Below, in pieces: positions 1-29,092 of a stretch of 29,372 bases of DNA (the stretch's first letter is position 1; every line of letters starts with the position of its first letter). Source of the DNA: Pigoraptor vietnamica (taxonomy: Eukaryota; Opisthokonta; Filasterea); NCBI GenBank assembly GCA_943704525.1, contig CALSCQ010002590.1, positions 1 to 29,372 of the forward strand, in the 5' to 3' direction. Under the pieces are notes generated by a model. It saw only the letters and a list, made by a program, of their open reading frames with translations. It had not been told where the DNA came from and made no database searches. A program made the translations under genes and the position numbers.

Positions 1-95
1 CCCCACACACACACACACGCACACACAACCGACCCTTAACACCCCTCTCCCCCCCCAACACCCAACCCTATTCTGCCCAAGAGGAGAAAATGCAC

Positions 96-143
96 CTGTG
101 TGATGGAGTCCCCGAAGAGGACGATGCGCTGAATGTCTCCCAT
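96..143 (-). CDS. GDSL/SGNH esterase resembling IAH1, first exon only (partial)
   Basis: Reading the minus strand from the ATG at 143 gives 16 codons that include RIVLFGDSITQ. This is block I of SGNH hydrolases, with the nucleophile serine in GDS, and it matches the N-terminus of isoamyl-acetate-hydrolysing esterase (IAH1-type) proteins especially well. The exon ends at CAG followed by GTGCAT (donor at 95-94). Reading past the donor gives low-complexity sequence, so an intron is likely and the rest of the gene lies beyond the left edge. The family hydrolyses short-chain esters; the substrate here is unknown. The gene diverges from the coiled-coil gene at 553. Only the first motif is visible, so any GDSL esterase of this type would fit. 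Confidence 0.6.
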
Positions 144-552
144 GCTGGCGTCAACGATGGAAGTCTCCTCCCTTTCGAAGTGTGCGAGAGCCTCGAAACG
201 ATGTCGAAGACGGTCTCACGCAAAAACTGAAATGAAGCCAAGGCCTCCCTTAGTGCCTGTTAATACTCACGTGTCTTGTAACACATTTATAGCGAGATCT
301 CGGACATTCTTGAATTCGAACTGGGTGGCTAAAAAACCGCACACACACACGGCCTCACCGACGACTCCACAGCAAAACGTGGCCATTCCGTGCGTTGCGT
401 CAACTCTTTCGCGCGGACGTGCATCTCCTCTGTCTCCTGTGGACGTCTCGCTGTGTCACGTGCAGTGCGGCAGATGGGCAGCCGCGACCGATAGCGCTTC
501 GAGTTCTTTGCGTGTCTCTCGTCTGCCGTTTAGGCCGTGTTGACGAGCCAAA
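144..552. promoter_or_regulatory. Divergent intergenic region, probable bidirectional promoter
   Basis: This 409-bp stretch lies between two start codons facing away from each other, at 143 (minus) and 553 (plus). It must hold both 5' UTRs and both promoters unless upstream non-coding exons exist. CACGTG hexamers are visible near 269-274 and 457-462. No clear TATA box is seen. The open frames in it have no recognisable similarity and I regard them as chance. Confidence 0.4.
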
Positions 553-875
553 ATGGCGTTCACAGTGGAGGACTTCAACCGCCTGCAGGTGTGTGTGTAC
601 GTTTGCGTGTGCGTGTGCTTGCGTGTGTGTGTGCTGCGTTTGTGAGTGTGCGTGCGTGTGTATACATGTGTGCGCGCGTGTGCGCGTGTGCGAGCGCGCG
701 TGCGTGCATGTGTCAGCATTTCTCTGTCGGTTGTGTCGCACCTGCACTTTATTTCGCAGTAGCTCTGATGCGCATTGCACAATGTAGGAGCAATTGATCG
801 AGCTTAAGACGGCGAAGTACGAAGCGGAGCTGCGCGAAAAGCATGTCCGCACAGGTGTGTGTGTGTGTGCGTGTG

Positions 876-942
<67 letters not shown>

Positions 943-959
943 CGTGTGTGTGTGTGTGG

Positions 960-990
<31 letters not shown>

Positions 991-3858
991 TGTGGTGTGT
1001 GTGTGGTGTGTGTGCGTGTGTGTGTGTGTGTGTGTGGTGCGTGTCCGTGCGTGTGTCTGTACGTGCGTGCGTGTGTGCGCGTGCGTCTCGTACATCAGTG
1101 CACACGTTTTGTATAAGTTTTGTGTGCGAGTGCGATGTGTTTCTTTATTGTTGACCCATCGGAACTCCCTGCAGAACTCGAGCAGCTGAAGCAGCAGCAG
1201 CACCACGGACCCTCCGGCTCCGCGGGAGGTGAGGGTCAGTCGCAAGCGGCGCAGAAAGCGGCCAAGTTTTTCCAGGCCGGCAAAGACCTCTTCAACAGAA
1301 ACAAGTCAGCGGCAGATGCAGAACAGGCGGCGGCACTTGCGGCTGCACCACCACCGGCAGACCCAGCCGCCGCCGCCGCGCGCATCACGGAGCTGCAGCG
1401 TCACTTGGACGATGCGACGAAGGCGTCGGAGCGTCAGAAGGCGCAGCTAGAGGAGGCCCAGAAGGCGACGGACAAGGTGAAGCGCGAGCTTGAGGAGGCG
1501 ACGAAGGAGAAGCAGGCGGCGCAGTCGCGCGTGTCGGAGCTCCAGAAGCAGCTTGACGAGGCGAACAAGCAGTCGGAGAAGCGCAAGAACATGATCGACG
1601 AGATCTCCATTCAGAAGCAGGAGCTGATCGCGCGCCAGCAGCAGCAGCAACTGCAGGCCGAGCGGCAGCTTGCGGCCAAGGTGGAGGAATCGAACGCAAA
1701 GGCGGCGGCGTACGAGGAGCGCCTGCGTCACGCCGAAGACGTACGCGTGCAGTTGCAGCGGGACCTCGACAAGGCGCGCGCTCACGTCGAGGAGCTCAAG
1801 GCGGACAAGTCTGCGCTCGAGGCGCGTCTGAGCGACCAGCGCGCGGCGAACGAGGCGCTGGAGAAGCAGCGGACGGAGGAAAACGCGGCGTCTGCGGCGG
1901 CTCTCGAGGCAATGACGAAGGAGCGCGACGAAGTCAAGGCAAGTGCGGTTTTGACGGCTATTTTGGGTTGCCTGTCGCATCGCCGCGATAGGGTGCAGGG
2001 GGGGGGGGGATTTCTTGTGACGGCACTGCGGTCGGCTGACACTTTCGTTGCCGCATATCTCAGGCGCAATTGGAGGGCATGCAGCGCGAGGTCGAGGACG
2101 TTCGCTCCGAGCGTGCGCTGGCGGAGAAGAAGGGCGTGCAATTGGTATGTTCGTCATGCTCAGAACAATGTTACGTCCACTGACCACTGTCCCTGCTGCC
2201 CCTGTTTGCGTGTTACTTTGCATGTGCGCTGCAGGATTCAGTGTGTTTCCGTCGTCTGTGCGTTTCACATCACTGCGGCACTCACCGCACGCACATGCAT
2301 ATGTGGCGTATGTTAGTGTACATGCGTGTGTGTGTCTGTGTGTGTGCACGAACTGAGGCATGTGCCCTCGCAGATGAAGGATCTCAAGCGGCAGTTGCAA
2401 GTGGAGAAGGCCAAATCGGAGCGCCTCCAGAACGAACTCAACCAGCTCAATGGCTACAAGCAGACCACGCACTCGCACTCGCCCGGTATGCGCACCATGC
2501 ACGAAGATGGCCCTCTGCTGTCTCATAGCGCCAGTCCTGCGTATCTCACCTTATCACGCCGTGTGAGCGCCTGTCCGTGTCTTTGTCTCGTTCTTTTATT
2601 TTTCTTGGCGCGTGGAGTGGCGTCTATCGTGTCTTACCACTCGCGTGCGCAGACGACGTCCCGAGCCGCAGCAGCATGGACCTGGAGTCTTCGAGTTCGT
2701 CGCGCCGCACTTCGGTGGACATTGCGCGCAACTCGATGGACGGTCGCAATGTCAATTCGCTGGTGGACGACAACAAAACGCTCATCAAGCGGTGCACGGA
2801 GCTGCAGGCGGAGAAGGCCAGCCTCGCCGAGAAGGTGCGTGCCTGTGTGTGTGTTTGTGTGCGTGTGCGTGCGTGTGCGTGCGTGTGCGTGGGTCTGTAC
2901 TTCTATCCGCATGGCATAGCAGTGAGACACGCTGTCTCACTTCACCTCACCCTGCGTGCGTTACAATGTATCCATTGCTATTGCGCAGATCAAATTTCTC
3001 GAGGACACGAACGCGGCGCTGGCGGATGACGTCACGCGCCAGTCGAAGCTCATCCGCGCGTATGCCATTGAGACATTCGGTGCGTGCGTTGCAATAGCAG
3101 CCCCTGTGCCTCTCCTTCGCGGAGCACGTGACATTGCTCTGTTGCCATACTGTTTGTGTGCGTCAAGGCGCTTGTGGCAGTGTGGTTTGTTCGTTGTGAG
3201 CTGTATTTTGGTCTCTCCCGTGAAGTGGAGGGCTACAGTTCGCGCAATTGCCTTTGTCGGTGCGATTCCAATGCCTCACGTTGCCGTCTCAGTGGGCGAC
3301 GATCCCCTCGATCCGTCTGCACCCAAGCGTAAGGTGGGCATTGTGTGCATGCACGCCTCTGTTCATAAGCCTTTCAGCGGCGCCATCCTTAAGTAATCCC
3401 CGACTTTATTATCATCGGACCTTGTTGCGTCTGAGCCCCCTCTAACTCCACGGCACACGCGCAGTCCATCCTCGCGAAGGCGGCCGGTGCCGTCAGTCAC
3501 GTGCCCGGTGTCTCGCAGGCGGCCGGCGCAGTGAAGAAGGTGTCGGACTGAGCTCACAGTTGTGTCTGCATGCCCTTTGTTAGTACTTCATGTCCACGCC
3601 GATGCAGCGACCGCTTGCGGGCCCTTCATAGGCAGTGCATGATGGATCGGGGCCTATTGTCCGGACTGCGCCCAGTCTCATGCACACCGATTGCAGATTG
3701 CGACAGGCGACGGGGCGAAGGACAAGGCACGCAAGGAGGCGCAGCGCAAACTGCAGCTTGCCCTCGAGGAAGCGATGGCCAAGAACGTCGCCCTGCAGGA
3801 GCAGGTGGAGACGATGGACGCGGAACTGCGCCGTGCGAAGAGGAAAGCGGCCGACTGA
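553..3858 (+). CDS. Coiled-coil protein resembling GRIPAP1/GRASP-1, ten exons
   Basis: Exons: 553-588, 788-854, 1175-1938, 2064-2144, 2374-2485, 2653-2834, 2989-3079, 3293-3333, 3465-3539, 3697-3858. They join in phase to about 536 residues. The start MAFTVEDFNRLQEQLIELKT resembles the N-terminus of GRIPAP1, a recycling-endosome coiled-coil protein. Residues about 110-300 are a long Ala/Glu/Lys/Gln-rich coiled coil. A Ser-rich linker (about 370-400) follows, then a segment with KFLEDTNAALADDV and LIRAYAIET that resembles the conserved C-terminal part of that family. The last exon is another short coiled coil. The third intron has an ambiguous or GC donor (see separate entry). Reading through the donor at 3540 gives an earlier stop at 3551, hence a possible shorter isoform. 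The coiled-coil nature is certain; the family assignment is moderate because such sequences align promiscuously. A trafficking role is inferred. Confidence 0.72.
855..1080. repeat. (TG)n microsatellite in intron 2 of the coiled-coil gene
   Basis: More than 200 bp of nearly pure TG with sporadic GG or CG interruptions begins directly at the splice donor at 855. Intron 1 (589-787) and intron 6 (from 2835) are also TG-rich from the donor onward. The Val/Cys and His/Thr-rich open frames here are artefacts of the repeat. Confidence 0.9.
1939..2063 (+). other. Intron with GC-AG (or alternative GT) donor
   Basis: The exon reads in frame to GTC AAG and is followed by GCAAGT, the classic sequence of GC-AG introns. 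The acceptor is CAG at 2061-2063, and phase 0 is kept on both sides. A GT donor two codons earlier (1933, GTCAAG) would also keep the frame, so the exact junction is ambiguous. The intron contains a run of about ten G. Confidence 0.5.
2896..2949 (+). repeat. Dispersed 54-bp repeat, copy 1 (inverted relative to copy 2)
   Basis: This intronic segment (TGTACTTCTATCCGCATGGC onward) matches the reverse complement of 4416-4469 at 50 of 54 positions. In both copies it directly follows a TG-rich tract on the corresponding strand. It may be a fragment of a small mobile or repeat family; no terminal repeats or target duplications are seen. Confidence 0.75.
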
Positions 3859-4873
3859 GCCTGCGCCGTGTGCCTGGGCGCCATACATTGTTACGTCTAC
3901 TCTTACGGAGCATCGTTGACAAGGGACGGTGCAGGTGTTCGTGGCGTTCACAGTGACGGGCAGTGAGGTGGACGGTGCTTATAAGCACCCCTGCTGCGGC
4001 GGACGGCCATAGCACCGGGCTCTTTTCCGACCATTATGACAGCGTCCGCTACTTCGAGCAGGCGACGAGAATGGCGACCGCACTAGCCGCCCCCGTGATG
4101 CACTCGTTTGGTCACAGTTGCGCGCCCGCGGTGAGTGCATTTTTGGTGGAGTCCTGCCGGCGACTGGGTTCTGTTACGCAGCGGCAGGCCCTTGCGTTGA
4201 ACCCAGGAGGCATCTTCTGTAGATGCGGGTTACACGTCAATTGTTCACAGGCGATTAGAATGAGTTTGATCGACCGGCGCCGCGTTCGTGCACTCCAGAA
4301 ATCCGGTCTGTGTTGGGGACCAACCAGGGCACTCAGAGGCATGCATGATAACTAACGGGACTCTGTCCCAAACACCTGCACAACGGCAACGAACGCAAGT
4401 CAACAACGCAGTGGTTGAGGCGAAGGGAGACAGCGTGCCTCACTGCTACGCCATGCGGATAGAAGTACACACACACACACGACCGTGTCAGACGCACGCG
4501 GCCCGGTGGGTAAGTGGATGCTGAAGCGCAGTGTGCGTGCAGGGTATAATTAGACAAAAACAAAAACGAAATGCAGGTGTGACACCCTGCGTTCCCGTCC
4601 AATTTTGCACTCGACCGGCTTCCCCCTGGCACAAATAAGGGGGCAGCGCTCGTGGTCGTCGCTTTTCAAAGTTCCGACTGCCGGTTTGAAACGGTCACGT
4701 GACTCAAAGGAACAGTGATTTGGACACATCATTGTTCGGAGTGTGCGCTCTCCCTCTCTCCTTGTTGCTTTCTGTGCGTTGTGCGGCGCGGCTTTGAGTT
4801 CGGCGCATGCGCGGCAGAGTGTGCGTGCGCTGTAGTGTGGGGTGTGTGTGACGGTGTGTTGTCACGAGGTACA
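3859..4873. other. Intergenic region between coiled-coil gene and TRAPPC11
   Basis: About 1 kb without a credible gene. It should hold the 3' end of the coiled-coil gene and the promoter of TRAPPC11. The longest plus-strand open frame (3963-4355) starts with GTG, has no recognisable motif and no splice partner. The only structured element is the second copy of the 54-bp repeat, followed by a short CA run (about 4467-4480). Confidence 0.6.
4416..4469 (-). repeat. Dispersed 54-bp repeat, copy 2 (reverse orientation)
   Basis: Reverse-complement partner of 2896-2949, with four mismatches in 54 positions. It lies between genes and abuts a CA run, the complement of the TG tract beside copy 1. Confidence 0.75.
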
Positions 4874-7800
4874 ATGGACATCCCTCACGAGCTGGTGCAG
4901 ACGCCGCTCCCCTTCGTCGCCGTCGCGGGCCTCGACCCCTCGCGCGAGCCTGCACACAAGGCGATATGGGACCATCTCACGGAGAAGGACGTGGGTAAAC
5001 TGCTCGCGTCAAAAATCTCATCGTGCGTGACGTAGAGGTGTAGGACTGTGCGGATGAAAGTATGCGCCGTGTGAGCGAATGTTTGGGTTTACGTACGTAT
5101 GGGCGTCTGCTCGATGTCTCAATCTCGGTGATTGTTTGCACGTGCCAGTGTGTGCGAACTTGAAGGAAGGAGTGGAGTGGCTGTTGCCTTTGTGTTGCTC
5201 GCAATCAATCAATCATCGCACCTTGGGACGAGGGCTCTCGCGTCGAACAGTGTTGTCATCCCGTCTCATGCCCGTTTGTAGCAGGCTGGACACCCTGCGC
5301 TCATTGCAGCGCGTCTGTTGGCGCCCAACCACACGTTCCCGCGCCGAAAGGACAAGCGCATCCACGACCCACAGGTGCTCCATCATATCATCAGACCGTA
5401 GAGAGATGACATCTTCATGAGATGTACGCTGTGTGAAAAGGACTCATGTTTGACCTTTCGGCAGGTGCCCGATCGCATCCTCAAAGCGAGCTGGCTGCAA
5501 AAGCACCGGGGCCTCCTTCCTGCCGCACTCGCCGTGTTCGTCGACCTCGAGTGGGACGACCCAAAGTGGGGCGAGCGCGAGATTGAGACGGCATCTCGCC
5601 TGGGCGCCCTCCGGTGCGTGCGTAAGCCCTGCTCTTACTGCTTGTCTCTGTCTTTGAATGCGCCTGTGTGCTTTGTGCAATACTGCCCTTCTTGTTTGTC
5701 GGTGTGTGCCCTGTGCTGCCCGTCGTAGCGGTCCTCTGCCTCGACAGTGTTGTTCGAGGTCCTCTGCCCCCCCCCCCCCCAACAAATGTATTCGCGAACT
5801 GCGTGCTTAATTGTGTATTTGGTCGTCCTATTGCGTACGAAAACCCGTTGTCTTGCTGCCCTTGCGTGCGGTGTAGCGGCCAGTTTCCCTCTTGCAGCCT
5901 TCGCAATCTGTCTCATCGCAGCATTACCTCTAGGTCCACCCTCTATGGCCGCGGCACGCGAGTCGCCGTCATTCTCGTGCAGCGCGCGATGCCATCGACC
6001 CCCGGGACTGGCGATGTGGCGCCTCCCCTCTCCCCTCTCGCCGAAGAGCGCGCCGTCAGCCTGCGCAAGGCGTGTGGGCTTGCGGACACGAAGACGCCGC
6101 TGATGACCGTGTGCGTGTCGGACACGGCCGAGCTGCGCGCGGGTATGGCGCGCGTGGAAAAGTCGCTGCTGGAGCTGTCGCAGGTGTACTATCGCGAGGA
6201 GGCGCGCCGCTTCAAGAAGCACCGGGACGTGCTGAACAAGGCTGCGCACCAGGTGCTGTTTGCGCGGTACTATTTCAAGGTGGCCTTTTTCGCGGAAATG
6301 CGCGGGGACGCCAAGGCCGCCCTCAAGTACTACCACTCTGCGTACTCGTACCTGCGGGACGTGCGCGACAAGGAGGCGCGCTCACGTGACATCAAGATGG
6401 TGGCGGGGTGGATCAACTACAAGATATGCCGGTTTCTGTTTGGGGCGACGAGCACGCAGGCCGAGGCCATCGACCACTTTCGAAGGCACTGCGCCGCGTT
6501 CCGCAGGCTCGTGGGACCGGACGAGATTGAGTTTCAGCACTACGCGTGGCTGTCAAGGCAGTACCGCCAGGTGCGTTCCAGATGTGTGTGCACGTCTGCG
6601 GTGTTTGCATGTGTGCGCGCGTGTGCGTGTGTGCGTATCCGCACCCCCTCGTTTGTATCGTCTCCCTCTTCGATAGACTGTGTGTGCTGGACTATTTGCA
6701 CCAATCGCCGATCACTGAGTGCGCCGCTTTGCTGTGTTTGCAGTTTGCGGACACCTTCGACGCCGCCATCCGACGCGGCACGGCCAACGGGGACCAGGCG
6801 CACCATCCGGGGTTCTACTACCGCACGGCCGCCCAGTACGCCGCGCTGCGTCGCGACAAGGTGCTCGAGATGGGCATCGTCCCCACGATACTCTCGGCGC
6901 GGCGCAGCGGAGACCGAGCGGCGTTGGACGCACTCGCTGTGCCGCCCGCAGGGACACAGGCGCAGGGCGCGGACGCCGGAGGTAAGCTGCTGTGGTTGCG
7001 AGGGTTTGGGGTGCATGGCGCATGCGCCATGTGTGCGCGCGAGAGTCATGCGCGCCTCTGTGTCTGCTGTGCTGTCGTTCGGCACACACACTCACTCACG
7101 TTGTTGTCTTCGCAGCATCGAGCAAGTGGCGCACAGAGTACAGCGGCATTGCGCGACCCCGCCCGTCGCACCCTCTGGACGAGGCGGCGCTGGCGATGAC
7201 GTCGTACATGGAGGACCCGAAGGCCGCGATTGAGTCTGAGCGCGGCGTGGACCACTCTGCGATCATTGTCGATCTGCTGACGAACGCGCGCGCGCACTTC
7301 AAGAAGCACAACAGCGGCCGCATGACGCTCCTCATCGCCGTCAAGATTGCCGAGGAGTACGCATCGTGCGGCGACTGCGCGCGCGCCCTGCAACTGTTTC
7401 AGCGCATCGCGCGCGATTACCGCCGCGAGCGGTGGTGGGACGTCCTTGCGGCGATCCTCTCGAACGCTCTCTCGTGCGCGTTCACGGAGGGAAACGTCGG
7501 CGTGTACGTCGCGTCGGCCGTCGAGTACATTTCGCCGTGTATCCGCAGCTGCGCCTGTTGAGGGCCAACGAGCCACTCTTGTGCCCTTGTGTAGTCCACG
7601 TTGGTCCGTGGGGACGGTATTTGGGGCGCCCTTGGCTGTCGTTGTTCCTTGACTCTCTTGCCCTCTTACGCTTCTCATGTTTTACCCTCTGCGCCGCATT
7701 CGCGCTAACAGTCAACGAGACGCTCAAGGACACGCTCATTCGCGTTCAGCACAACCTCATGCGAGTGCTCATGGTGCGTTCTGCGTTCTTCGTGCCCTCG

Positions 7801-11011: not shown

Positions 11012-11695
11012 ATACAGCACTCTGTATGTTCTCCAGGGCTTGAAAAACGGCGTGGTATTTCATGGAAGAGAGAATAGGGCGATGTAGGGTGGGTGTTTTT
11101 CTTCCCTGCATATTCAAATTGTGCACCGCGAAATAAATCTGACAAACTTTGGAGAGAATTTCAAATGAATAGTCCGGCCGGCAACGGATCCCGTCGGCGC
11201 CGGCCGCCGGGCGTCGGATGTGCGCGACGGCTGCGCCGCTATTCCCTTCATGCATCCATTGCAAACGATAAATGAGCACGTGGGTGCTTTGCGAGAGAGT
11301 CCATATCGGCCTATGTCGGACCTTCATCCCTCGGCTCAATGTCGGTCAGGGGCTGTTCTGAGTACTGATGCCGGGCTGCCGATGCTGTTGGTAACCATTT
11401 GCTCGTGGTAACGTGTAGAGAAAATGTAATACTTATCGACATTTTTAGCAGAAATAAAAGTGTATCACGTTAGTAGAATAATCCTAATATTTTATATTCA
11501 TTATTGCAAACTCACATTTGCGTGTCCGCGGACACCGTTCTGCCAAAACCAGTCCGGCAGTGCACGGACACAAAGCCCCAGCATTCCCCCGATACAGTGT
11601 GGCACAAAAGTGCGTGCGCTCGCTACAATTTAGGGAGCCCCCACAATTCGCCGCGAACATGCGGTGCGTTTCTATTCGCAATTGCTCCCTCAAGA
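11012..11695. other. Intergenic region: TRAPPC11 3' end and promoter of HET-like gene A
   Basis: AATAAA hexamers lie at 11132-11137, about 120 bp after the TRAPPC11 stop, and at 11453-11458. The first is a plausible polyadenylation signal. The stretch around 11420-11510 is clearly more AT-rich than the surrounding genes. No gene is recognised. The HET-A frame is open upstream to 11504, but only from a TTG; the first in-frame ATG is at 11696. Confidence 0.55.
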
Positions 11696-19143: not shown

Positions 19144-22100
19144 CTACATGGGCTCCGTAAAGTCGGTGAAGTTGAGCGTCGCCTCGTTGATGTACGTCTT
19201 CACAGCCGACGGCCCGCCGTTCGACGTGACGACGAGCGTCCCGAGCACAGCCAGCATGTCACGCTTGCCGAGATCCCGGCCGAGGAGGTCTTCGAGGACC
19301 AGCGTGAGGCTGAGGTCGCGGTGCCAGAGGGCCACGCCCGTTTTGGACTGAATGAGGGGTGGTAGCAAATTTTAATCAGATTGAACGAATGCGGAACTAA
19401 CACGTAAATATATGCAATTTGGGGTAACAGCAATTTCGAGTACAGAACATAGTCACTATGGTATAATAATGAGAGGAACATGGGACGCAATTGTTGGAGT
19501 CAAAGCAACAATTGGGCCTTGGCTTTGTTCGCACGTGAAAAAACAAAATAAGGCCCACCTGGTCCACTTTGCCGACGTCCACGCCAAGAAACTTTCGCAC
19601 GACCCACGCGCGAGTGTAAAGAAGGCTCTTCACGGACCCCGAGTCGTTCACAGTGTACTGCACGCAGCGTACGCAATGTCAACTCCATAACCAGCCAGCC
19701 ACACAACGAGAAAGGTGCAGATCTAGCCGATTCCATGCCGATTGCAGAACAAGCCAACCACACAAAAAAACAAAGGAACAGCCACTGCGCATCTGGCCGA
19801 TTGAATGCCGATTGCAGAACCAGCCAACCACACAAAAAACCAAAAGGAAAGCCACTGCGCATCTAGGCGACCGACATAATTCGCGCGCAGTGTTGCGAGT
19901 TGCACGGGCAACGCACCAATGGACAGGCGTCAACAATGACAAGCCGCGATTCCGTTACGACGGACGTCTCTGGATCCGTCCACGCAGCGGTTATCCATAT
20001 CACGCTGGACGAGACGCCCTCGGCACTCGCCACGGCTGCAAGGGGCGCCGCCTTCGACGCGACGTTCACTCCGGTCACGCGCGCAAGCCCCGCGGGATCG
20101 GATGAGGTGCCAGCAAAGGCGGCAAGACAGGCTTTCGACGACTGGATTGCATGCAAGGTACAATCATCAGCATTTTAAAATTCACACCAGCCAATGCAGC
20201 AATATAAAGTCAATACACGGCGAGCACACGTACCGACGGCCGCGTGGCCTGCAGGATCGCCGCGAGGATGCCGACTAGCTGCGATGGCTTCGTGACGGTC
20301 GCTACAGACGCGACTGGCCCTGTGGGCGCACCATCCGTACTGCCCGCCTGGCGCTCAACGGGGGGAGCCGCGCTCGCAAAGCGAAGGGCGTCGAGGAGGT
20401 CCGTGACGCCGGATGCGCCCGCGCTGACCACAGGCGAATCGTCGTCGTCGGCCACGGCCGCCTTCGCCAGGTTCAGCGCCGACACCGTCACCTCGGGCAC
20501 GCCGCGCACGCTGCCATCAGCTGGTTCGAAGATGCGGCGTATGGCGTGTGTGAGGATCCCTTCCGACTCGACGCCTGACGACGCCAGGGGCGTTAGCAGC
20601 GACATGTACTGCGCCTCCTGCGCCGCAGGGTCGCCCGCCTGCGTCACAAGACACACGCGGCCAGGCGCGGCGCGAATTTTGCCCGCAACGCGCTCCCCAA
20701 GACTGACGCGGAGGTGCGCGCGGGCCAGCGCACGGGCGGCCTGATCGTTCTCCACCGCCGGCGCCGAAAGCGCACGCTCGCGCTCTTCCGCAAGCGTGCG
20801 CGACACGCGGGCGACGAAGGCAGCGAGGTACTGGTCCTTGCCCTGCGGTTCGGCAGGGGTGTAGAGCTGCCGCTGCTGGTGTGCGGGCCCCGTCACGTTC
20901 AACTTCTTCCACTCGTCCAGCGAGCGCGAGGCGTAGAGCGCCGTCAGCTCGGCGTCGGCGCGCAGCTTGACAATGTCCTCGCGCTTCAGCTCGACCTCCG
21001 CGCGGCGCCCCGCGGCCCACTGCTGCAGCGCCATCACCTGCCGGGGCACGGTCCACTTGAAATCCTCGAACGTGCGCGCGATGTTCTCCTTCGCCTGCCG
21101 CAGCTCCTTCATGCGCGCCTCGTGCTTCTTCTTGAGCTTCGCGTGCTGCTGCTTCGCCTTCGCAACGACGTCCTCCATCTTCCGCTTGCTAATCTTGTTC
21201 GCATCCAGCAGCCGCTTGGCCTCCTCAACCTCTCCCTCCAATAACCCCAGCGCAGACGCAAGGTTCGCCGCCGCCTGCTGCATCTGCGCCGCATTCGTCG
21301 CCGTGTCCGCTGCGAACCGGCGCGATCGGTCGGCGAGCGATCGGTCGATGGCGGCCTGGTCCTCGGCCAATTTCTGGTCCAATTTCGCCTCTTCGGCGGC
21401 GAGCTTCTCCTGCATCTTGAGCGCGCGCGCCAGCATCGCCTCCCTCTGGACGGTCGCGCAGTGGAAGCGGACGTTCAGGTCCTCCTGGTACCGAAAGTGG
21501 CGCACGTAGTTCGAGTAATACGCCTCGATCCAGTCGTCGCTGGCATCCACGCGGATGATGCCGCCGCGCGGGCAAGTGATCGTCGACAGGGCTATGCAGC
21601 TGTTGAATGCAAAGCGGCTGCGTCCGCCCTGCGCAGCAACGCAGTGCCCGCGGTCCATACGTTGCACGAGCAGCCAGCTGTCGCTCGCGCCGTCCTCCCC
21701 GCGGCACAGCGACAGGGACGGCGCGACGGCCTGGCACAGGCACACCGTGGGGCACTTGTGCGGCGGGAAGTTCGGCCATATGCGGACGGGATTTTCGGCA
21801 TCGCCAAACGCCTGGAGGCAAGTGAAGAGCTCGGGCTTCTCGGTGGGCGCCGCTGCGACGCGCGACTTGAGCGATTTGGCAATGTCGGCGTAGCGAAGTG
21901 TGCTGCGGCAGTGGATGCGGGATGAGGGGTAGGGCAAGGGTCCGTGTTAGGTGGCCGACCAATAGACTAGCCATGTTCACAGCAATCGTACACGCATAGC
22001 CCGACCCTAACCCATACGCGCCCTAACCCTAACCGACCTCATCGTCTCGGCGTAGTTGGACATCCGCGGGGAGATGGCGGCCACCATGACGACGCGCGAG

Positions 22101-25100
22101 TTGGAGCCCACGAGCGACTCCTTGAGCACCATCGTCAGCTTCGAGTCACGGTACGGCACGGGCTTGCCCTCGACGATTGCGCTGATGCACGAATTGAGAA
22201 CGGTCAGCGACTTGTTGATCTTGCGCGATTCCAGCTGCCGCGCGGCGACCTCCTCTGCGTTCACGCGCCCCTCCGCCGGCATCACGTTCAGCCGCTCGCT
22301 GCCGGCAAGGTCCACGAGGAAGAGCTTGTTGGTTCGCCGCGCCTCCGACTTGTCTCGGTGGCGGCGGTGCAGCCGAACCTGCGCATTGTTGTTGTGTTAT
22401 GCGCAAAGCGAGTATAGAGGGGAGAGAGCCGCAGCTTCCGACGCATGGGACCACACGGACCTGCAAAATGGTGTGGGCACGGGACGACGTTGCGTTGTAC
22501 TCTGTGGCGGCGACTGTGCAGTGGGACCGGCCCTGCTGCAACAGCTCGCGGAGGTGCGCATGGCTGGTGATGGTGCGCACGTCGCCGTTGGAAATTTCGA
22601 GCACGCCGTTCACCTCTCGAATAAAGAGTTGCCTGTTGGAACATGCAGACACCATGAATGAGACCGAAGGGATAGAACGCAGCCTAAATTGTCGGGCCAA
22701 TAAATCGCATTTAGGAGTAAAACGCAGCCTAAGTTGTCGGGCCAACAAATCGCCATGTGAGAGTTGCAATGGTGCCCGGAGTGCCACTTGCCTCTTCTCT
22801 CCGTGTTGAACCCCAAGGAGATCCTGCACCTTCCCGTTGTAGATCTGCAAAGCACGCCCACGCAGCTTAGAATTCACAATACAATGAATGGGCGCCACGC
22901 CATGACCCTACAAGGGCATGTTGTAACACGGCCCCGGATGCTGCCCGGAAAGCCAAAACACATCGAGGGCAGCGGGCGCGCGAATCGCAGGCAAATGCCA
23001 CGCGGGCGCACCTCGAACATCATGAAGTCCATTTCGTATGTCCACTCCTTTCCTGCGCTCGCCTCCACGCGGCGGTAGAGCTCCTCGAGGATGCGCGGCA
23101 CAAGGCCACGGTCGTCGGGCGTGCCGTACATCGTGTACGTCTTGCCTGTGGGGACGTATTAATCAGGGGGTGGATTGGCGCAGTAACGTCGCACACACGC
23201 ACAACACGCACAGCACACACACCACGCACAACACAAATGAACACGCTTAGGCGCACGGCACGCGGCGATGCCCCACCTGACCCCGTCTGTCCGTAGGCGA
23301 AGAGGCAGACGTTGACGCCGTCAAAGGCGTTCTGGATGGCGTCCTGGCCGAGAATGGCGTGGACATTCTCCTGCGAAATGTACGGCGCGTTGCTGCCGCC
23401 CTTGCGGTCGTGGCTCCAGAACGAGTAGTGGAAGCTGCGGGCGATTGCAGGCGGTCAGGAAAACACACGTTAGGCTCACACAGCGACACACATCCACTTC
23501 TCCATTGCGAAATCCGCTGCCACAGCCAACACATACACTCACACTTGGGGCAACCCACGACGGAAAGCCCTCACGCTTCAAACAATCTGCCATCCCCCAC
23601 GCTGCCGTGCGCACCTGAACTCGTCGTCGCGGCCCGTGTCGGGGTTCTTGACAATCGTCTTGTTGCCGTGCATGCGCACAATGGAAATCTCATTCGCCGC
23701 GCGCTCCTTCTCGTCGAAATTGCGCACGCGGGTCACCACGAGCGCCTCGACATACATGCCCGCCACCCGTTGGTGGTACTGCGAAGCCATGGGGCGATGC
23801 GGTCACACACACGTCATCTGCAACGCTCGCTGGCAGTGTGGGTAAGACGCGCTGAGCAATGCGCAACGCACCGGCAGCTCCCTTTGCGCCCTCGGAAACA
23901 CGCCGCCGCTGTACGAGCGCATTTCGATCTCAAGACGTTCGGAAAAGTAGCGTGCCAGTCGCTGGTGGTAAGTGCCGTAGTCCCTGTAGCGCTCGCGGAT
24001 GGCCACCGCGAGTTGCCTGCGAATGGGCGAGTCGGAGTGTCACGTGCCGCCCACGGCATCACAGCATACGAGCGCACAAGATCGCGTTGCTCTTCACAAA
24101 TGGCAAAGAAAAAAAAGTCGCTCAAATGGACACGACGACAAGGGAACATGTAGCGAAGTGCGCAACGGGAATCGCTCACAGCAAAGTGAGCCGCACACTC
24201 ACCGGTGGAAGAGATCCAGCCGGCCCTCGCCGCGCGTGCCCGCCTCCTCAATGGGGCGCAAATAGGCGCGCAAATCGACGAGGAACTTGGACCACGCGCC
24301 CGGTGAGCACGCGAGGATGGCGAGGGCCTCCGACTCGAGCAGACCCGCGCGCACGCAGACGAGGAGGCACAGCGCGTCCTTGACGAGCGCTGCGCCGTGA
24401 TCTGTCTCCCACCGCACGATCACGCCCACGAGAAGCTTGGCGACGGTCGCGGGCATGCCGGCAATGGCACTGTCGAAGCTATCGTAGTGGCCGTAGAGGG
24501 CGAGCTCCTGGCACGCAATCTTGAGGTAGAGGGGAAGTCCCGACGACTCCTTCTCGACGATCGCGCGCATCTGCGGCGCCGAAAGCGTCTTGCGCTGCAC
24601 GCCGAGCATCGCCGTGACAATTTCCTCGCGCTCCGCCGGAGTGAGCAGACCAAGGTGCTGCGTGGGGAGCCCCATCCGCACGCCCGACAGCTGCGAGGCG
24701 TGGCCCACGACGGTACTCACGGCCACGCGCACGCCCGCCGGCAGCACGGACGGCAACCAGTCGAGCGAGCTTGCGTCGAAAAGTTCGTCCAGCTGATCCA
24801 CGGCATCGATGAGCAGATGCACGGGCACCCTGCGTCCGGACATGGCGGCGAGGGCGTCGGCAAACGCCGCGCACAGGTCGCGGAAGTCGCACGCGTCGTC
24901 GTCCGCGAGGGCATCCGCCGCGTCTCCCAACAAACGAGCACGCTCTCGCAAAAAGCGCCGCAAGAGAAGGTCGACGCTGGTAGACTCCGGGCCGGCGCCG
25001 ACAAAGTGCACGTGCGTGAAGGGGGCGCCCCAGTCGCCGCCGGTACGCACGGATGCGTCGTTTAGGAGGCGGTTGGCGACAGCGGCCATCACGGTGGACT

Positions 25101-28100
25101 TGCCCGCGCCAGACTCTCCAATAAGCATGAGGGGTGGGGAGGCCTCGTCGGGGGCGCGCGCAAAGTACGAGACGACGGCGTCCACGGCCTGCGGGCGCTC
25201 GACAGAGTGCACGAGCAGTTCTGGGAGGGGAGCGGACATGCAGAACGCATCAGTGCGTGCGATGCTAGGGATCGGTGACAAACATACAGAAGGCATCAGT
25301 GCGTTTGAGATGCACGTGCACGCAAAGAGGACTGCTCTCCCACGTTTCGTCTGAACGACACAAGAACACTAGAGGGCATAGAGATCCGTTTCACACAGGG
25401 CGCTGCACACGCACCGCGAACGCGCCGGTCGTGTGCCGCGCGCACAATGTCGTGCTGGTCGACTCCCTCGGCCGCAGCGCCAATTTCGCTCTTCGGGAAC
25501 ATGGTGGCGATGCTGCCCCACAAATTCGCAATCACGCTCTCGGCGAAGGCGTCGAGGTCGCCCACCATCGGCTTCATGTCCACTATGCCGCGCCACGAGC
25601 ACGTGTACCTGCGCAGAAGCGCGCGCGTGAGTGTGTGTGAGAGAGTGTGTGTGTGTGTGTGTGTGAGTGTGCGTGTGAGCGACACGTGACATTGTGTTGC
25701 GAGTCCGCCTTTGAGCCAGAGCCACGAAGAGAATAGCAGGAGCTATCATGAAACGTACGGCGTGGCTGGGATGCCGGGAAGCGCTGCGATGGCGTCCTTG
25801 AGCTCCGCGAGCAGTGGCTCATGCCCCGAGGCGCACTGGAAGTCGTCGTACACGCGTCGCGTCTCCTCAGTGTCCCTCCTGGGAGCAGAGGGAAAAGAAA
25901 CGACCGTGTGAGACACAACGGCGCATGCCCCTCAGCAGTCGTACCCAATACAGCCATCCGATCTGCCCACAATACAACGCGGCTCAAAACAAGGCTACAC
26001 GAAAAGCAAACGCAGCCATCATTTCCACATGCAAAACGTCGCACGAGGCAACCCACAGTTTGCGGAAGTCGTCCCGTTGCATGAACGCGGGGTCCCTGAG
26101 GTAGAAGAACGCGCGCCGAGGGGCGTGCTCCGCGCCCTCGGACAGCGGGGGATCGAGCGACGGGTGCTGCAGGGCCCCGTAGAACATCTCGAGGTGCGTG
26201 ATCGAACGCCCCGTAAACGCGCTCTCGGCAAACCAGAACCGCTCGTCGTTGGTCGGGAGATTGTAACAGTTGGGAACTGCCGGAGGGCACCAGCCGTACC
26301 TTTGTTGCGCGACGCATAAGTGGCGTGGAGCAAGCATGTGCGAGGCGAAGTAATGGCACTTAGGCATACGGCGCACTCCCGCTGATACGAACACGCATGA
26401 CACGCGAAGAATACTGGCAACAGGTGCAGTCGGCGAGAGACGGCACCCGCAAGATGACGGAGCACAGTGTCACGTGCCTCTCGCCCACAATCCCGATGAA
26501 GAACGTGGACTTGTCGATTTCGTTCAGGCAGACGAGGGCGCTCGTGTTGACCTCGGACTCAAGGCGCACGCCCCAGCGCAGGTCGACAGGAATCACCTGT
26601 TAGCCACGGCGTTGCGTCAGGGTTAGAGCAGGCCACATGCACGAAAGAAATTTCACGAGCGAGACATGCCCTCCCCCCCCCCCCCCCCCCCCCCCCTCAA
26701 CGAAGATGATGGTGTGTCGCATAACAGACGCAACCTGGCCCACCTGTACGCGCCGGCTGGCACACATCTCGTTGAGCCGGGGGAACACAAACCGCGTGAG
26801 CACATCGCGCTCGCCGTGCATGTCCGCAAAGCAGCTGCTGATAAACGCATACAGCGTCACCCAGCCCGTCTGCGGGTCTCTTCGGGGCAGCGACGAGTAC
26901 ATCGGTGGCACGCGCCCCTTGCCATAGGGCACGTGACACTCGTAAGGAACAGACGCGGTCGGGACCGCCGTCACGCCGACGCCGCCTGTTTGCTCCGCAC
27001 CCTCCGCCGCCTCACTTGCCGCATTCAGCGCCGACAGAGACATGCTGGTCGAACGGCGCTGCAGCCGCCGCTGCAGCACGTCTGCAGGTGCGCTCGTCGC
27101 CTCCACTTGCTCGTCTTCAATGTCGAGGTCGATGGCCGCAATGAGATCGGCCACGCGATCCCCGAGGGTCGAGCCGTCAGCGAGGCTCGTTTCGCTTCCC
27201 GCGCGGCTGCTCTCGTTGCTGTCGGAGGAAAGCAGCCGCGCGTCCTCGCCGCTGTCGTCGCGCACCAGCGAGGACTCGGCATGGGATGCGCCCCGAGGCC
27301 CCGGATGTCCCGCAGCCACCAGCTCGGCCGTTGCCAGCAGATTGTCGATGGACCCCGGCGCGTCACTGAGCGACCCGCGCGACGCCCCGTGCGCAGCCGC
27401 ATGCGCACCCTCCGCCGCACCGCCCGTACGCGCAGAGAGCGCCAGGTAAGCGTCCGCGGCGCCGATAATTTTCCCCACGGCGTCCGCCGCATGCACCGCG
27501 TCGCCTATTGTCGCGTCCGCCGTTGCCGTGGCGACAGCGAATGCCAGGCTGCTCTCGCTGCCCACCGCCGAAAGCGCGCTTGCGTCGGGCAAGTCCACGT
27601 CGGCCGCAGCCGTGAGCGTCTCTGCGCGCTCAATGGTGCGCTCGGCGTCTGCGAGAAAGCCGTCGTCCTGCGCGCCCTCCAGCTCGTCGTCGAGCGAATC
27701 GGCACTCTCGCTCCGCCGCAGCACCTCACTGCACTCGCCCAGTGTCGCCGCCAAGTCCACGCTGGATGCACCCTCGTCTGCATTGTCCACGTGACCATCA
27801 GGATCGCGGGGACCCTCGTCTTCTGCGCCAAAGTCCAGCCCACCCTCGGCCAATCCATCGACCGCCATTGCGCCGTCCTCCCACTCATCGTCCGCAGCCA
27901 CTTCCCCAGAGCGCGCCTCCAGGGCACCCTCGCCGGACGCCTGTTCACCGGCGCCGTGCGAAAGCAGCGCATTGTCCCGTGAGTCGCCCTGCTCGTCCGT
28001 GCCTTCGCCCGCCCCCTCGGCTTCAAAATCGTCCGCATACACACCGCCTCCTGCCGCCGCAGCCGACGCCCTCTGGCCAATCACAGGCAGACGGGCGGTG

Positions 28101-29092
28101 CCAGTCGGCAGACTCCCTGTGCTCCCGGCTGCTCCGCTGCCGGCGCCGTGCGCGATGGGCGGCAGCACGGCGTGGCTGGATCCGCGCACCTGGTGTTGTG
28201 GGGACGACACGCGCGGCGCACCACGGAGCTGCTCAAGGCCGGAGGGACGCGCTGACGGCCCTTCCGAGGTACCGCCCGTGCGCACGTAACCCATGGCGGA
28301 CGATGCCCGCGGGGGCAGCGGGGAGGGCGCGTCGCGCTTCATGGAAAGGCGCGAGAGGCTGCCGTGCCGCACGCTCGGCAGGGCGTCATCAACAGCACTC
28401 GTCGCTGCGGGAGGTCTGTGCGTCGCAGATGCGGCCGTGCCAATCGGCGGTAGCACCGGACGCAGCGTAACATCCTCCGGCACGTGCGCGGGGAGCGCGA
28501 CAACCGACGGCGTGGTCGGTGGCCGAGCCAGCACGACGGCCGTAGAGCTTCCACGTTCAGCCGAGGGTGGTCGAGGGTCCGGCAGTGGCATCGCGCTGAT
28601 TCCACGCAAGGACGACGAAGAACTCAGGATGCGCGCTGGCGATTCCACCCTAGCACTGTCGCTCCTGGATGTCCCCACATCACTCGAAACGACCGACGCG
28701 CTTCGGTCACTGCGGGCCTGTGTGCCACTGCTGCGAAGCGTCTGCACTTGCGCCTGCAGCTCGGCAACAGCCCGCTCAAGCGCACTCACCGCCGCGACAC
28801 TGCCGTCGCGCTCCTCTTCAAGCGCCCGCAGCGTGCGCTCTGCGGCGCTCTTCGCCTCCTCCGCAACCCTCGCGCGCCCATCGGCACCCTTCGCGCTCGC
28901 CTCCGCCTCGCGCAGCCGCCGCTCATCCTCGTCCCGCTGTCGTCGCAGTGCAGCCAGCTCCGCTTCCACGGACGATCCGCGCGCGTCCGCGTCCTTCAGG
29001 CGGCGCGAGAGAGCCTCGACTGCCTCCTCAGCGCGCCGCAGTCGCTCCGCAAGCTCGGGGTCCGGCTGCGGGGCGCTCGAGCCGGCCCCCAT
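19144..29092 (-). CDS. DUF4062-NACHT/STAND NTPase fused to a kinesin motor, 17 exons
   Basis: Minus-strand exons in order: 29092-26744, 26596-26478, 26299-26045, 25878-25759, 25608-25415, 25220-24203, 24016-23872, 23778-23615, 23434-23277, 23145-23012, 22844-22792, 22632-22461, 22378-22038, 21902-20234, 20141-19917, 19657-19559, 19347-19144. All phases agree and give about 2472 residues. MGAGSSAP at the start is an N-myristoylation-type sequence. A coiled coil (about 10-110) and an acidic Ser/Ala-rich disordered region follow to about 740. Then come DUF4062-like (744-910), NACHT (about 1013-1400), kinesin motor (about 1410-1760), coiled coil (about 1850-2010) and an unrecognised tail. At the junction, FPRAQRELP splices in phase 0 to YHQRVAG, restoring the RELPYH-like end typical of STAND helical regions, and the kinesin strand follows at once. 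The alternative is two genes separated by 12 bp, 23803-29092 and 19144-23790. It is less likely because the NACHT end would be cut short. Confidence 0.62.
19685..19873. repeat. 70-bp tandem repeat, about 2.7 copies, intronic
   Basis: Units 19721-19790 and 19791-19860 align end to end with few differences; both begin ATCTRGCCGATT and end GCCACTGCGC. A partial unit precedes them (19685-19720) and another follows (from 19861). They lie in the intron 19658-19916 of the fusion gene. A 70-bp unit is not a multiple of three, so it is not a protein repeat. Confidence 0.85.
22005..22034. repeat. Interstitial telomere-like repeats (CCCTAA/TTAGGG) at a splice donor
   Basis: CCCTAACCC at 22005-22013 and CCCTAACCCTAACC at 22021-22034, broken by a short spacer. 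On the coding strand these read GGTTAGGGTTAGGG starting within four bases of the donor at 22037. They fill the 5' half of the intron 21903-22037. Confidence 0.85.
22633..22791 (-). other. GC-AG intron inside the kinesin motor domain
   Basis: The exon ends GAG AAG AG followed by GCAAGT; the acceptor AACAG precedes GCAACTC. Only this junction (phase 2) joins GVQHGEKR to QLFIREVNGVLEI in frame. The nearest GT, three bases downstream, gives the wrong phase. Confidence 0.8.
22676..22755. repeat. 45-bp tandem duplication inside the GC-AG intron
   Basis: Two adjacent units, 22676-22720 and from 22721, share AACGCAGCCTAARTTGTCGG and the following GCCAAYAAATCGC. The second unit degrades after about 35 bp. 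Confidence 0.75.
23779..23871 (-). other. Junction intron between NACHT and kinesin parts, with alternative acceptor and start
   Basis: A 93-bp intron from donor GTGCGT (23871) to acceptor TTCGCAG (23779). Inside it, an alternative acceptor GTTGCAG ends at 23818. Its use adds four codons and then TGA (23805-23803), which would give a protein ending just after the NACHT region. An ATG at 23790, in frame with the kinesin exon, lies between the two acceptors and could start a separate kinesin. Confidence 0.6.
26300..26477 (-). other. GC-AG intron inside the DUF4062 domain
   Basis: The exon ends GGC GAG AG followed by GCACGT. The acceptor AAAG precedes GTACGGCTGG. This junction (phase 2) restores the conserved GERYGW motif exactly. 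The nearest GT, within GCACGTGA, would give the wrong phase. Confidence 0.8.
26673..26696. repeat. 24-nt poly(C) tract (poly-G on the sense strand) in first intron of the fusion gene
   Basis: Uninterrupted C on the plus strand within the intron 26597-26743. The pre-mRNA would carry about 24 consecutive G, which could form a G-quadruplex. Shorter homopolymer runs occur in the coiled-coil gene (G, about 2000) and TRAPPC11 intron 3 (C, about 5767-5780). Confidence 0.9.

Follow-up and report, generated by a model that had tools for sequence, protein, structure and literature searches.

Does one gene of Pigoraptor vietnamica join a STAND nucleotide switch to a kinesin motor, or do two genes lie side by side, and what would a joined protein do? 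These questions are raised by contig CALSCQ010002590.1 (C1078) of a 32.5 Mb draft genome of 1395 contigs, of which bases 1-29,372 (61% GC), hereafter the window, were analyzed. An initial annotation had proposed that a DUF4062-NACHT protein is fused in frame to a kinesin motor on the minus strand there. The exons were put together manually on the evidence of conserved frames and of splice sites, and the rebuilt model reproduced two of its claims: the frame stays open through 17 exons to a TAG (29092..19144, minus; 2472 amino acids, aa), and the RELP/YHQ junction is in phase 0, after residue 1400. We conclude that the DUF4062-NACHT part and the kinesin are, with very high probability, a single fused protein. 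The sequences compared establish the fused gene model, the conservation of the fusion in P0001, a protein of another organism, the presence of a second copy in the genome, and nucleotide-binding motifs that are intact in the two ATPases.

Evidence for a single polypeptide

When residues 740-1480 were used as the query, 73 proteins matched among 7999 scored candidates. The best of them was P0001, a EukProt entry that has a transcript-style name and the header 'type:complete' (2127 aa; E = 1.8e-136), in which PF13271, PF24883 and PF00225 occur, that is, DUF4062-NACHT-kinesin. BLASTP of window residues 1124-1765 against P0001 gave 280 identical residues in 680 (41%) across the junction, on either side of which the alignment is free of gaps, for over 90 residues in all (RELPYHQRVAGMYVEALVVTRVR in the window protein and RELPFHQRLSQQHNDALVVTRVR in P0001). 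Three protein searches were made, with candidate sets limited by shared words and length (7999, 8000 and 95 scored); among the 185 proteins returned, P0001 alone matched both the motor hidden Markov model (HMM) and the DUF4062-NACHT HMM. Further fusions were not found among the matches listed in the third search (112 matches of 8000 scored candidates, the upper limit of the search), nor on the viral contigs searched, and the P0001 junction used as a query matched only P0001 among 95 candidates.

A search of the P. vietnamica genome with a 360-residue junction protein revealed collinear NACHT and kinesin matches on another contig, C1032. The NACHT exon there ends with FPRSL(R), and the following exon reads RELSYHQRMAGTTPDVLVAVRLRPLTDDE; a single exon encodes RELSYHQRMAGTTPDVLVAVRLRPL, which contains both the closing motif of the NACHT and strand 1 of the kinesin. 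As placed by eye, the C1032 intron lies 3-4 codons upstream of the position of the window's intron 7, and its phase is different.

The junction itself carries a further clue. The helical region of the window protein is closed by an ELPYH-type motif, whose exact ELP[YWF][HQL] form is present in 36 of the 79 NACHT relatives that are not fused. From these 36, a position-specific scoring matrix (PSSM) was made for the 13 residues after ELP, and 106,474 13-mers out of 105 kinesin-only matches served as the background. The first 13 residues of exon 8 (YHQRVAGMYVEAL; compare ELPYHQTVAGMWREL of P0044) score 17.96, a value as high as which none of the 106,474 background 13-mers was found; the mean score of the 36 profile relatives is 26.5, and one background 13-mer in 106,474 reaches the C1032 segment. 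This score supports the earlier suggestion that a RELPYH-like STAND closing motif is re-formed at the junction. Because exon 8 opens with the closing motif, the STAND homology passes intron 7 and ends at the motor start. The proposal of a single polypeptide is accordingly backed by the P0001 alignment, by the junction-crossing exon of C1032, and by the trees described below. The features are collected in Table 1.

Table 1 Features of the fusion gene and its second copy (window positions, unless a contig is named)
Feature	Position	Strand	Basis or remark
Whole gene, DUF4062-NACHT-kinesin fusion	19144..29092	minus	17 exons, TAG stop, 2472 aa
MGAGSSA, N-myristoylation-like motif, aa 1-7	29072..29092	minus	sequence motif only
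Exon 1, aa 1-783 (heptad-like N-terminal stretch, low-complexity region, DUF4062 start)	26744..29092	minus	heptads by eye
DUF4062 (TIR-like), aa 750-829, exons 1-3	26281..26845	minus	PF13271, E = 1.4e-10
E860, aligned with catalytic E1008 of human TEP1	26188..26190	minus	alignment with TEP1
P-loop NTPase, aa 1019-1172; Walker A GESGAGKS (1047), Walker B LLIDAVDQ (1148)	24742..25203	minus	AAA_16, E = 1.9e-10
Exon 7, end of STAND helical region (...GGVFPRAQRELP)	23872..24016	minus	
Intron 7, 93 nt, links both modules	23779..23871	minus	in-frame TGA 23805-23803 and ATG 23790 inside
Exon 8: NACHT-family closing motif YHQRVAGMYVEAL first, then kinesin strand 1 (VVTRVRNFDEKE)	23615..23778	minus	
Kinesin motor domain, aa 1417-1751, exons 8-14	21872..23730	minus	Pfam, E = 2e-86
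Coiled-coil tail, exon 14	20927..21481	minus	predicted long helices; pLDDT 70-90 in 150 of 556 modelled residues
Exons 15-17 and introns, C-terminal	19144..20233	minus	no Pfam family above cut-off in tail
Second, divergent NACHT-kinesin gene, 5' part lost at contig end	C1032 ~1-4300	plus	contig begins inside NACHT part

pLDDT, predicted local distance difference test score

Domain organization and gene structure

Six Pfam families matched the 2472-aa protein (DUF4062, AAA_16, AAA_22, NPHP3_N, kinesin and Microtub_bd). Both modules are represented in these matches, in agreement with the claim that complete STAND and kinesin signatures lie on the same strand. PF05729 (NACHT), NB-ARC and LRR are not among the six families; the NACHT label comes from the NPHP3_N match (E = 2.5e-6) and from the DUF4062-NACHT relatives. 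For PF13271, the score was 41.7 bits against a curated cut-off of 24.7, and the solved TEP1 TIR domain 11gz matches this region (E = 4.6e-34), the likeness extending over approximately aa 743-986. The AAA_16 and NPHP3_N matches exceed their cut-offs, and the P-loop NTPase, both Walker motifs of which are intact, comes after DUF4062, the same order as in TEP1-type STAND proteins. TROVE and WD40 were not found in the protein by Pfam at E 0.001, and TPR or other repeat-sensor families were not found by Pfam either; the kinesin motor stands at the sensor place, so that the domain order bears out the view of a motor in place of sensor repeats. The kinesin profile is covered from position 1 to 326 of 327, which indicates a complete motor, and the best solved-structure match of the motor is KIF1A (E = 1.1e-64). 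GQTGSGKT, SSRAH and DLAGSER, the motifs of the P-loop, switch I and switch II, are present in the motors of both the window protein and P0001, and SSRAH is not peculiar to the fusions, as the plain kinesin-3 relatives P0074 and P0076 have it.

Outside this core, the two proteins differ. P0001 carries two matches to RyR close to the N-terminus, and its Walker motifs are separated by an inserted MBT repeat, while the window protein has a heptad-like N-terminal stretch (by eye) and a predicted coiled-coil tail. Because the flanks differ, the conserved unit is DUF4062-NACHT-motor. An MGxxxS-type start is common to both full-length fused proteins (MGAGSSA in the window, MGCSSSH in P0001); the pattern MG[^EDRKHPFYW]xx[ST][^P] is matched by 2 of the 177 proteins that start with Met, out of the 185 obtained, and P0001 is one of the two. 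For the tail, the structure is a single-sequence prediction with a mean pLDDT of 48.7. Pfam matches up to E 10 were confined to CHD5 in the window protein (E = 1.4; 9.1 bits versus a cut-off of 29.3), with none in P0001. FHA was not among the matches up to E 10, and the poor tail model would not reveal a diverged FHA. With a match below its cut-off as the sole one in the tail, an FHA or other tail domain was rejected.

The 16 introns of the gene are 82-259 nt long, and two of them are of the GC-AG class: intron 2 (GC at 26477) and intron 11 (GC at 22791). Ending exon 3 at 26045 keeps the gene open, whereas ending it at 26053 breaks the frame. Two peculiarities were also noticed: intron 13 (22037-21903) opens with telomere-like repeats (GGTTAGGGTTAGGG), and a poly-G run lies inside intron 1.

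History of the fusion

The motor tree has 76 rows. All three fused motors group there in a single clade (99/96) in which those of the window and P0001 are sisters (100/98), and this trio falls inside a 21-row kinesin-3 clade (100/97) together with FHA kinesins and STARD9. The NACHT tree, for which 30 rows were picked by hand, gives 94/76 for the trio and 97/94 for the window and P0001. The trees put the fusion core in a wider group with TROVE/WD40 relatives such as P0002. The grouping of the three fused genes in the trees makes a single old fusion likely, and the simplest account would be one fusion, a later duplication, and then the split of the two species, the C1032 gene being the other daughter. 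On the NACHT side, the evidence that C1032 belongs to the fused group is moderate. In the C1032 motor, SSRSH and the catalytic motifs are kept, and the neck-linker Asn is present (by eye).

Contig C424 of the same genome was considered as a third fusion and rejected: it encodes a kinesin (kinesin-3-like by eye) with an apparent ATG and short N-terminus of its own (MTDNVKVAVRVRPF), and no NACHT match was found upstream in the stretch read. On contig C346 (2737-9085), two DUF4062-NACHT frames of the same orientation, which are close relatives in the tree, are separated by about 4.2 kb. Elsewhere in the window, a neighboring gene has a Foie-gras_1 match (5938-6570, plus), presumably of the TRAPPC11 type, and three long open frames (664, 597 and 625 aa) at 11477-18488 (plus) have no Pfam family above the cut-off, one of them having a weak Protoglobin match (E = 0.0055). 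Contigs C1328 and C874 carry 47 cadherin repeat matches, a sign that would fit a holozoan.

Comparison with known proteins

Among the nearest known systems is TEP1 (TROVE-DUF4062-NACHT-WD40), a vault protein, with which the fusion has the DUF4062-NACHT core and the catalytic Glu in common; TEP1 has TROVE and WD40, however, neither of which was found in the fusion, and a kinesin motor and coiled coil occur there instead. NPHP3, a ciliary NACHT-TPR protein myristoylated at residue 2 (PMC9266639), resembles the fusion in the MG...S start and the NPHP3_N match, but its TPR array has no counterpart found in the fusion protein. A plain NPHP3 relative was rejected, since TPR is missing and the core groups with TEP1/WD40 rows; NPHP3 itself is absent from the trees. 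With the kinesin-3 proteins KIF1A, KIF13B and KLP-6, the fusion has the KIF1A match and the placement in the kinesin-3 clade in common, but a kinesin-3 motor is usually N-terminal, with the neck-linker Asn and a following FHA, whereas the fusion motor is internal (1417-1751), lacks the Asn, and has no FHA found. The bacterial anti-phage system Swarozyc has the DUF4062 NADase domain but no kinesin (PMC13174449), and the word 'kinesin' does not occur in the main text of that report.

The initial annotation knew of no described precedent. This stands for DUF4062-NACHT-kinesin, which was not found in the literature searched, among the matches listed (few subscription papers were covered); in the main text of a 2010 survey of 1624 kinesins with 105 domain architectures, 'NACHT' does not occur (PMC2867816). 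In its general form it should be toned down, for the kinesin motor figures in survey tables of domains that occur in plant NLRs (PMC4759884 Table 2; PMC11734081 Table 3). Because plant surveys list kinesin in NLRs, the union of an NLR-type switch with a kinesin is not wholly unprecedented. These plant proteins unite a STAND-kind switch and a kinesin motor in one protein, as the fusion does, but they are NB-ARC receptors, and the surveys name them in tables only.

Proposed function and alternatives

According to a preprint of May 2026 (PMC13174449), the DUF4062 domains make up a TIR-like family that cleaves NAD+; the NADase activity of human TEP1 depends on E1008 and is lowered by alanine at R908, and the C-terminal sensor of TEP1 is proposed to trigger NACHT oligomerization. 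For the comparison with TEP1, its 220-residue chain was taken to end at 1113, with which R908, R954 and R976 fall on Arg and E1008 on Glu. The catalytic Glu is kept (E860 in the window protein, E763 in P0001), and so is R976 (R823 and R731, respectively). We judge it slightly better than an even bet that this is a TEP1-like STAND protein, the sensor repeats of which have been replaced after the ELPYH helix by a kinesin-3 motor, and that it is microtubule-targeted and nucleotide-switched. The motor is probably an active microtubule-binding ATPase, and its service in localization or transport has about an equal chance of being right or wrong. Under this reading, the motor would carry or hold the protein on microtubules, and the N-terminal lipid motif and the coiled coils would attach it to a membrane or partners; nucleotide-driven NACHT oligomerization would gather the DUF4062 domains, as proposed for TEP1, and cleavage of NAD(P)+ would take place where the protein is concentrated by the motor. 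The regulated transport of a signalling platform that the initial annotation put forward may be a role of the protein.

Several points weigh against this reading. R908 of TEP1 corresponds to A756 in the window protein and N663 in P0001, and the supporting R954 is changed to T801 in the window protein. Human NWD1, NWD2 and NPHP3, which have the DUF4062-NACHT layout, showed no NADase activity in the preprint cited above (PMC13174449), and for that reason an active NADase in the fusion is a coin toss. The neck-linker Asn, found by eye in 14 of 16 readable rows (from 18 kinesin-3-clade relatives), is missing from the window protein and P0001, so that ordinary stepping is doubtful. The P0001 segment fits the junction profile more poorly, being reached by 10 of the 106,474 background 13-mers. 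The NACHT-half support for the trio (94/76) is not strong, and a quick NACHT tree of 49 rows gave only 35 for the trio, with 99 for the window and P0001. Finally, the fused model is known from the genome sequence, not from transcripts of the species.

The transport or localization reading is preferred; next come the motor as a sensor, and a scaffold with a dead NADase, and the architecture is common to all three. In STAND proteins, the C-terminal part restrains the NACHT and frees it on a signal, and the motor occupies the slot of the WD40 or TPR sensor of relatives, directly after ELPYH. Engagement or loss of microtubules could then gate NACHT oligomerization and DUF4062, the motor acting as a microtubule guard or an integrated bait. 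In kinesins, the neck linker pairs with the cover strand, which precedes strand 1, and the corresponding stretch in the fusion is STAND sequence; nine residues lead from ELPYH/ELPFH to the shared ALVVTRVR in both the window protein and P0001, and because of this short link the STAND and motor conformations could be coupled. The loss of the neck-linker Asn in both proteins also fits a sensor, and kinesin is a domain found in plant NLRs and common to effector targets (PMC4759884 Table 2). Gating of the NACHT by the motor would be a conjecture, however, and the catalytic motifs of the motor, needless for a passive bait, are kept in the window protein, P0001 and C1032. We regard a sensor as unlikely, though worth keeping in mind. 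More doubtful still is a fuller version: a STAND NADase with a working kinesin sensor, in which the microtubule grip, through the link of about nine residues replacing the cover strand, would decide NACHT oligomerization and NAD(P)+ destruction, a cytoskeleton guard that would predate the split of the two species and have been duplicated.

A motor with a non-enzymatic STAND head, that is, a scaffold or cargo oligomerizer, perhaps like NPHP3 or NWD, in an unusual ciliary or vesicle kinesin, is likewise an improbable but tenable account. The unconserved R908 and R954 positions and the inactivity of the three human proteins as NADases (PMC13174449) are in its favor, and the genome encodes UNC119, a protein that transports myristoylated cargo of cilia, for example NPHP3 (PMC9266639). 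Both the window protein and P0001 retain, however, the catalytic Glu and an Arg at the position of R976, and the Walker motifs of the window protein are intact.

Two adjacent genes, a NACHT gene with the TGA 23805-23803 as its stop and a kinesin gene with the ATG 23790 as its start, are very unlikely. Both signals exist: the unspliced NACHT frame hits this TGA, and the ATG, in the context CCATGG, is in frame with the kinesin; there is also an internal in-phase acceptor at 23817 with a score of 5.6, the best other than the one used. The used acceptor of intron 7 nevertheless scores 7.5 (rank 4 of 16) and its donor 10.7 (rank 2 of 16), both by a leave-one-out matrix, the distance from the stop to the ATG is just 12 bases, and the C424 kinesin appears to begin with its own short N-terminus. 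The ungapped P0001 alignment, the C1032 exon spanning the junction, and the closing motif at the start of exon 8 are the grounds on which separate genes were rejected. Intron 7 retention, leading to the TGA stop with the motor ATG 12 bases on, is a possible, predicted source of two short isoforms. A misassembly or dead gene, which the fragmented draft and the poly-G run might suggest, is extremely improbable, since all 17 exons are open and the same fusion occurs in two further sequences (P0001 and C1032).

Implications

The preferred reading is that of a microtubule-targeted STAND protein, and the conserved architecture brings together nucleotide switches of two kinds that ordinarily occur apart, one being a STAND protein of the immune type whose head may be an NADase, the other a microtubule motor. 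The fusion is a natural construct for asking whether the motor gates the STAND protein or the STAND protein gates the motor, and it bears on the other uses that eukaryotes may make of TEP1-type DUF4062-NACHT proteins.

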